Shown: positions 36,592 through 38,005 of the stretch, in pieces
Layout of the letters: each line of letters begins with the position of its first letter
How positions within the stretch are numbered: the stretch's first letter is position 1
Made by a program: the position numbers and the translations under genes
The notes under the pieces: model-generated
What the model was told of the DNA's origin: nothing
What the model saw: only the letters and a program-made list of their open reading frames with translations
Databases searched by the model: none
Assembly: GCA_949297385.1 (NCBI GenBank)
Contig: CASFSP010000041.1
Span: 1 to 38,005, forward strand
DNA length: 38,005 nucleotides
From: an uncultured Oscillospiraceae bacterium
GTDB taxonomy: Bacteria > Bacillota > Clostridia > Oscillospirales > Ruminococcaceae
Direction: 5' to 3'

Positions 36592-37614
36592 TTAAAAAGT
36601 TTTATTGTTTTCCTGCAAAACATCCCTTAATGTATCCATGTGATCCAGCACATATCCTGTACCGTTGGCCACGCAGTCCAGCGGGTTTTCAGCCACATAT
36701 ACATCAATGCCGGTTTCATTGCTGATAAGCTTGTCCAAGCCTCTCAGCAGAGCGCCGCCGCCAGTCAGTGTAATTCCTCTGTCTATAATATCGGCAGCCA
36801 GTTCCGGAGGGGTTCTTTCCAGTGTTTCCTTTACTGCCTCCACTATTTTTTCCAAGCTTTCACTGAGGGCTTCTCTCACATCTTCAGAGGAGATTTCAGC
36901 ATTTTTGGGCAGGCCGTTTATCAGGTTGCGGCCTTTTACTTCCAGTTTCAGGTCTTCGTCCAGCTTATAAGCAGTACCAACCTCGATTTTAATTCTTTCA
37001 GCAGAACGCTCACCTATCAGCAGATTGAATTTTCTTTTTATATAGTTGATTATAGCCTGGTCAAATTCATCGCCGCCTGTTCTTACACTGCGGGATGCCA
37101 CGATACCGTTAAGGGATATTACAGCAACTTCGCTGGTACCGCCGCCTATATCAACAACCATACTGCCGGTGGCTTCCCGTACAGGCAGTCCTGCACCGAT
37201 AGCAGCAGCCATAGGTTCTTCAATAATCATTACCTGTCCGGCGCCTGCATTTATGCTGGCATCGCGCACAGCTCTTCTTTCAACTTCCGTAACACCGGAA
37301 GGAATGCATATAATAACAGTCGGTTTGAATATAAGGGATGAACCGCAGGCCTTCTTTATAAAAATTCTCAGCATGGCAGCAGTAACATCAAAGTCAGCTA
37401 TAACGCCGTCTTTAAGAGGTCTTACAACCATGATGGATCCGGGGGTTTTGCCTATAACTTCTTTTGCCTCGTCACCTACAAATCTTACTGTGTCATTTTT
37501 TGTGTCCACAGCCACAACGCTGGGTTCGCGCATAATTACGCCTTTGCCTTTCATATATACCAAAGTATTGGCAGTTCCCAGGTCAATGCCTATGCTTTTG
37601 TTCATTCCAAACAT
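36592..37614 (-). CDS. mreB: Rod shape-determining protein MreB
   Basis: The 340-aa protein is the bacterial actin homologue that directs cell wall elongation under the membrane. Actin-fold motifs: IGIDLGTANTLVY (phosphate 1), VVDIGGGTSEVAVISL (phosphate 2), GGGALLRGLDKLI (adenosine), with EEPMAAAIGAGL between. Length fits MreB (about 340) and not the Mbl or MreBH variants specifically. GAGAGG precedes the ATG; a second ATG four codons in is less favoured. It heads the mreB-mreC-mreD-mrdA cluster with a hairpin after it. Confidence 0.95.
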   Translation of the reverse strand: MFGMNKSIGIDLGTANTLVYMKGKGVIMREPSVVAVDTKNDTVRFVGDEAKEVIGKTPGSIMVVRPLKDGVIADFDVTAAMLRIFIKKACGSSLIFKPTVIICIPSGVTEVERRAVRDASINAGAGQVMIIEEPMAAAIGAGLPVREATGSMVVDIGGGTSEVAVISLNGIVASRSVRTGGDEFDQAIINYIKRKFNLLIGERSAERIKIEVGTAYKLDEDLKLEVKGRNLINGLPKNAEISSEDVREALSESLEKIVEAVKETLERTPPELAADIIDRGITLTGGGALLRGLDKLISNETGIDVYVAENPLDCVANGTGYVLDHMDTLRDVLQENNKTF

Positions 37615-37689
37615 ATCAAAATCCTCTCTTCATCTGTAATTATCAATCTATTTAAATATAAAATTTAATATACTTATAATATCTAATAT

Positions 37690-37719
37690 ATTCTATCATA
37701 TACAACGCGCTTTTTGCAA
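37690..37719 (-). promoter_or_regulatory. Candidate promoter of mreB
   Basis: TTGCAA (37714-37719) and TAGAAT (37690-37695) on the minus strand have 18-base spacing, about 75 bases before mreB. A second pair (TTGTAT / TATTAT) overlaps it. Both are imperfect. Confidence 0.45.
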
Positions 37720-37882
37720 TTACTTTTTTGTCATTTTAAGCAAATTTTAACTTTTGTCGTGAGGTTTCAACAGTGAACAAAATAAAGTAAAATGCAGATT
37801 TTTCCGTTTACTGCAAAATACACAATAATATTTACCAAAAGAGATATACAGTATACAAACTGCATAAAAGCGGTAACTATAC
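37720..37882. other. Non-coding spacer between mreB and the outward promoter
   Basis: Within the gene-free stretch 37615-38005 this AT-rich part lies between the mreB promoter region and the rightward promoter. It contains only short inverted repeats (for example AAATGCAG near 37791 and CTGCAAAAT near 37811). I see no gene, tRNA or known riboswitch. Confidence 0.5.
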
Positions 37883-37911
37883 TTGACAAGTCCACTTTAC
37901 AGGAATATAAT
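37883..37911 (+). promoter_or_regulatory. Perfect consensus promoter firing out of the window
   Basis: TTGACA (37883-37888) and TATAAT (37906-37911) match the housekeeping consensus exactly with 17-base spacing. Transcription would begin near 37918 and leave the window to the right. Confidence 0.85.
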
Positions 37912-37945
37912 CAAATTATGAAAATTTAATGAAAAAAAAGTTAAT

Positions 37946-38005
37946 GTGGCTGATGGTTATCTATAAGTTTTGTAGTTATGATTTCGCCACTTTTCATAGT
38001 TGAAA
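37946..38005 (+). ncRNA. Foldable 5' transcript of unknown nature, cut by the window edge
   Basis: Downstream of the consensus promoter GTGGC (37946-37950) can pair with GCCAC (37986-37990), and inner bases (CTATAA / TTGTAG, with G-U pairs) extend the stem. A second hairpin follows at the edge (TTTCA 37992-37996 with TGAAA 38001-38005). No ribosome binding site or open frame is seen in the visible part. It could be a small RNA, a leader, or the start of a mobile element; the rest lies outside. Confidence 0.3.

Follow-up and report, generated by a model that had tools for sequence, protein, structure and literature searches.

What is transcribed from the perfect promoter consensus at the right-hand end of the window, the whole 38,005-nucleotide stretch of Oscillospiraceae DNA analysed here? 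The earlier note had reported an exact TTGACA-17-TATAAT at this place, and the consensus is indeed present at 37883-37911, with the -35 box at 37883-37888, the -10 box at 37906-37911, a spacer of 17 and a score of 12/12 in a sigma-70 test that allows spacers of 16-18. It is also, as claimed, the only exact promoter in the window at spacings of 16-18, and only two of 100 shuffled windows contained one, but the source genome (G000; 1.75 Mb) carries 31 exact TTGACA-17-TATAAT sites as against none for the pattern read backwards, so that approximately 0.7 would be expected per 38 kb and the lack of a second copy in the window means little. The genome of the sister species, G005, holds 38 exact sites, compared with three for the reversed-pattern control.

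The probable gene beyond the contig end

The window comprises the entire contig C41, which ends at base 38005. When 37620-38005 was used to query 61 genomes, the source genome included, the only full-length match besides the self-match, among the matches listed, was in G005 (84% identity, on G005:C42). In this sister species the region runs on without a break from the promoter through a leader of 91.5% identity to AGGAGA and then to an MFS transporter gene. In L040, the G005 counterpart of the locus, the equivalent of the window edge is L040:1715 and the start codon, an ATG preceded by AGGAGA, lies 14 bases beyond it at L040:1729; the ORF (L040:1729-3045) encodes 438 amino acids and matches Pfam MFS_1 (PF07690) with 143.1 bits against a gathering score of 33.4. 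Extension to the right by way of this counterpart leads into an ordinary protein gene just beyond the edge, an outcome that the earlier note had named as counting against its reading. The remainder of the gene is present in the source genome as well, where the first bases of a second contig encode the same protein from residue 4 (G000:C93:2-1306), with 98% identity to the G005 protein and, at the codon level, 63 silent and nine residue-changing differences. Downstream on C93 follow maf and then three further ORFs in the same order as in G005, the small ORF first; the ones after it we take to be U32-like and zapA-like. As C41 and C93 do not overlap, and the spacing of the G005 alignment leaves approximately 21 bases, with the ribosome binding site and start codon, in neither contig, the join rests on synteny, which points to C41 continuing into C93.

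With the start codon shortly after the edge position in G005 and the same gene opening C93, we read the transcript as the MFS mRNA and the 90 bases as its leader. The feature almost certainly belongs to a gene for an MFS-family transporter, as its promoter and untranslated 5' leader; this gene would run rightward, divergently from mreB, with its coding part on another contig (Table 1). Of the 'unidentified transcript' of the earlier note there thus remain a real promoter and a downstream leader, but these belong to the transporter gene; similarly, the statement that no ribosome binding site follows holds within the window, but in G005 AGGAGA stands within a few bases of the edge position. The apparent orphan transcript is thus an edge artefact, produced by a contig break within the 5' leader of an ordinary gene.

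The consensus promoter would be recognized by the housekeeping sigma factor, and transcription would begin approximately seven bases past the -10 box, near 37918, with strong expression of the transcript suggested by the match to consensus. A leader of approximately 100 nt, able to form a stem-loop, would then precede the AGGAGA ribosome binding site, and the translation product would be the 438-amino-acid transporter. The assembly break would fall inside the leader, so that the coding part opens a different contig, C93, and in the source species, as is seen in its sister, the gene would be an extra one, on the opposite strand, between maf and mreB.

Table 1. Features at the right-hand end of the window, with their relation to the sister species G005
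Feature	Position	Strand	Remarks
mreB, divergent neighbour	36592..37614	-	Pfam MreB_Mbl and NCBIfam MreB above cut-offs
Region upstream of mreB, probably carrying the mreB promoter; bounds the extra MFS gene on the left	37615..37750	-	Right limit approximate
Promoter of the MFS transporter gene (sigma-70 type, TTGACA-17-TATAAT)	37883..37911	+	Exact match; 28/29 aligned positions the same in G005
Untranslated leader of the MFS gene, 5' part, truncated by the contig end	37918..38005	+	86/94 positions of 37912-38005 the same in G005, where AGGAGA and ATG follow
24-codon reading frame (MKKKLMWL...)	37929..38003	+	Stop 38001-38003; frameshifted relative to G005; not conserved, probably chance
Stem-loop GTGGC...GCCAC in the leader	37946..37990	+	Predicted fold; outer stem unaltered in G005

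Folding of the leader and competing explanations

Where two hairpins had been proposed, folding of the leader predicted one long stem-loop, in which GTGGC at 37946-37950 pairs with GCCAC at 37986-37990 as the closing stem and which by itself is not significant (MFE -15 kcal/mol, z -1.60, with 11 of 200 shuffles as good). The G005 leader folds with a z of -3.45, so a stem-loop is predicted in both species and the suggestion of a structured leader stands in this loose sense. The two sequences differ in length by one base at 37968, near the terminal loop, and over aligned positions they are identical at 28/29 in the promoter, 86/94 in the leader and 69/104 in the spacer before the promoter. Of nine MFS leaders in the genus, eight are more stably folded than their shuffles, with z values from -1.64 to -3.45, the exception being G003 (z +0.89); in this set the contig end truncates the G000 leader, and the start inferred for G003 splits an inverted repeat; in fixed 60-base windows the values of the congeners are partly weaker (e.g. 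-1.03 for G003 and -1.40 for G011). Control leaders behind exact promoters, based on mechanical ORF calls and including orthologues common to both genomes, gave a mean z of -1.9 in G000 (11 measured of 30 loci, seven of them at -1.6 or below) and of -1.8 in G005 (14 measured of 30 loci, the MFS gene itself included, seven at -1.6 or below). As exact promoters of other genes in these genomes also tend to be followed by leaders that fold, the leader hairpin is not special, and we rejected it as a distinctive feature.

The idea that the stem-loop acts as a regulatory RNA, confined to the genus, that senses a substrate or a condition has a slim chance of being right; it builds on the retention by congeners of a strong promoter and, in eight of nine leaders, of a fold better than that of shuffles ahead of the ribosome binding site, despite diverged leader sequence. 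By analogy, the stem-loop might have an mRNA-protecting role: 5' stem-loop leaders that stabilize mRNA are known for ompA, papA and Bacillus subtilis aprE, according to titles in the reference list of PMC3997798. The MFS leader resembles these in having a predicted stem-loop upstream of a ribosome binding site and differs from them in that its stabilizing role is hypothetical and that leaders behind perfect promoters in this genome tend to fold anyway.

A separate small RNA or an element of known riboswitch type could likewise make use of a foldable leader, and at three of the 20 other exact-promoter loci searched with Rfam a tRNA gene does lie directly downstream; other exact promoters precede protein ORFs. 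Against this, no Rfam family reached its gathering score in either the window or L040, the five matches of permissive searches were all to eukaryotic families and far under their cut-offs, and no tRNA or rRNA follows the promoter in L040. In addition, the G005 leader leads directly into a ribosome binding site and start codon, the terminator scan listed none in the window's leader, and the leader, used as a DNA query against 16 genomes of the genus, had a long match only in G000 and G005, with pieces of 20-40 bases in five others. With nothing credible from Rfam on the window or its G005 counterpart, we set this explanation aside as very improbable. The earlier note had also named an element end, and neither that nor a small RNA found support. 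Contig ends frequently coincide with repeats, and this site does carry an additional gene, that of the MFS transporter, as would suit a mobile element that halted the assembly; the last 306 bases of C41, however, match only themselves in their own genome, and the G005 interval from mreB to maf holds, overlapping frames apart, no long ORF besides the MFS gene. As the edge sequence matches nothing else in its own genome, a repeat or element end was rejected, its probability being practically negligible.

There is also a reading frame, so the claim that none follows the promoter was inexact: 24 codons start at 37929. That it encodes a small membrane or leader peptide controlling or accompanying the transporter might be argued from G005, where the frame has 43 codons and a hydrophobic stretch (MKKMLMWLMFIYMVVGMILPLFIVERR...) and overlaps the MFS start. 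The one-base length difference, however, shifts the frame in G000 to a stop at 24 codons, and all three substitutions before the indel change the residue, compared with 63 silent and nine changing differences in the MFS gene; for these two reasons the frame is most likely noncoding. In addition, no ribosome binding site was seen by eye before it, NCBIfam gave no match to it, and its best Pfam match was ResB (E 0.011), whose 15 bits fall short of the cut-off, 24.6. The frameshift and the pattern of substitutions, in a comparison of two species, led us to reject a conserved leader peptide, and we give the peptide reading very little chance.

The mreB-maf neighbourhood and the distribution of the transporter gene

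The ORFs that follow mreB in the window are presumably mreC, mreD and minD. Among 14 further congeners, with G006 omitted as a contig end truncates its mreB, maf adjoins mreB in 13 of 13; the matched parts of the two genes are 121-192 bases apart, and none of these loci has an MFS match. The earlier note was thus right that this promoter and transcript are not a usual neighbour of mreB, and, since maf and mreB adjoin in all 13, the MFS gene is an extra one between them. In G005 the MFS gene stands on the opposite strand between maf and mreB and is followed by a terminator-type hairpin and T-run, as judged by eye. The region upstream of mreB (37615-37760) is identical to that of G005 at 135 of 148 aligned positions, and pieces of it were matched in G001, G015, G009 and G011, all of which have no MFS gene here. 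A maf-(radC-)mreBCD gene order is described for Firmicutes in PMC6827917, and the genus resembles it in the adjacency of maf and mreB in those 13 congeners and, in the window, in the mreC-, mreD- and minD-like ORFs after mreB, whereas in G005, and by inference in G000, the opposite-strand MFS gene separates maf from mreB. A literature search for maf, radC and mreB as an operon or ordered gene group found no paper. The extra gene may uncouple maf from mreB, and the mildly notable point of the locus is the placing of a genus-variable transporter gene, with a consensus promoter, between these two genes.

A copy of the MFS gene is present in nine of 16 genomes of the genus, and in the seven besides G000 and G005 it is not on the same contig as mreB. 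The copy of G008 (L062, L063; G008:C29:6998-8271) matches in two overlapping pieces and may accordingly be frameshifted. All eight copies with readable upstream DNA, G005 included, have a promoter-like site before them that agrees with the consensus at 9-12 of 12 positions, six of them at 11 or 12; sites with nine matches often arise by chance (20 kb contained 73, where 37 were expected), and the weaker congener promoters are therefore poor evidence. A wider-family scan of genome contigs found 27 loci, among them G005 and seven other congeners, mostly from Oscillospiraceae (10) and Solobacterium (10) and many from ruminant gut samples. In 12 of the 27, with start codons picked mechanically and little upstream DNA at some loci, there was no promoter-like site of at least nine matches 20-200 bases upstream, and the leader hairpin is not general across these 27 loci.

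Identity to the G005 protein is 64-70% for the Solobacterium copies and for L073 and L074, and 52-60% for the six congener copies compared; in a tree the G000/G005 pair is separate from the copies of the other congeners, with no resolution at the base of the group. A recent horizontal gain of the gene is possible on this evidence. With its 438 amino acids, its MFS_1 match and its place as a single gene with its own promoter, the G005 gene is like other MFS transporter genes (PF07690); it differs in having no close solved relative, the best profile match being GlcP at 36.5 bits, and none of the 25 NCBIfam models listed reaches its cut-off for the protein.

Other loci with exact promoters

At L114 (G000:C78:11915-11943 and downstream) and L153 (G005:C25:107532-107560), an exact promoter is followed by a similar downstream stretch with an inverted repeat (GGTTAGCGTATGCTAACC). 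Neither has an ORF with a ribosome binding site within 250 nt, and L114 has no Rfam match; the pair is a better small-RNA candidate than the transcript of 37883-38005. At L103/L104 (G000:C25:14396-14432), where no ORF with a ribosome binding site was found within 250 nt in G000, two exact TTGACA-17-TATAAT promoters overlap with an offset of eight bases, an arrangement kept at G005:C53:79727-79763. A further exact promoter, at L119 (G000:C103:9657-9685), precedes a long open ORF, which by eye we take to resemble Cas9, and a tRNA gene match lies at L119:1395-1467.
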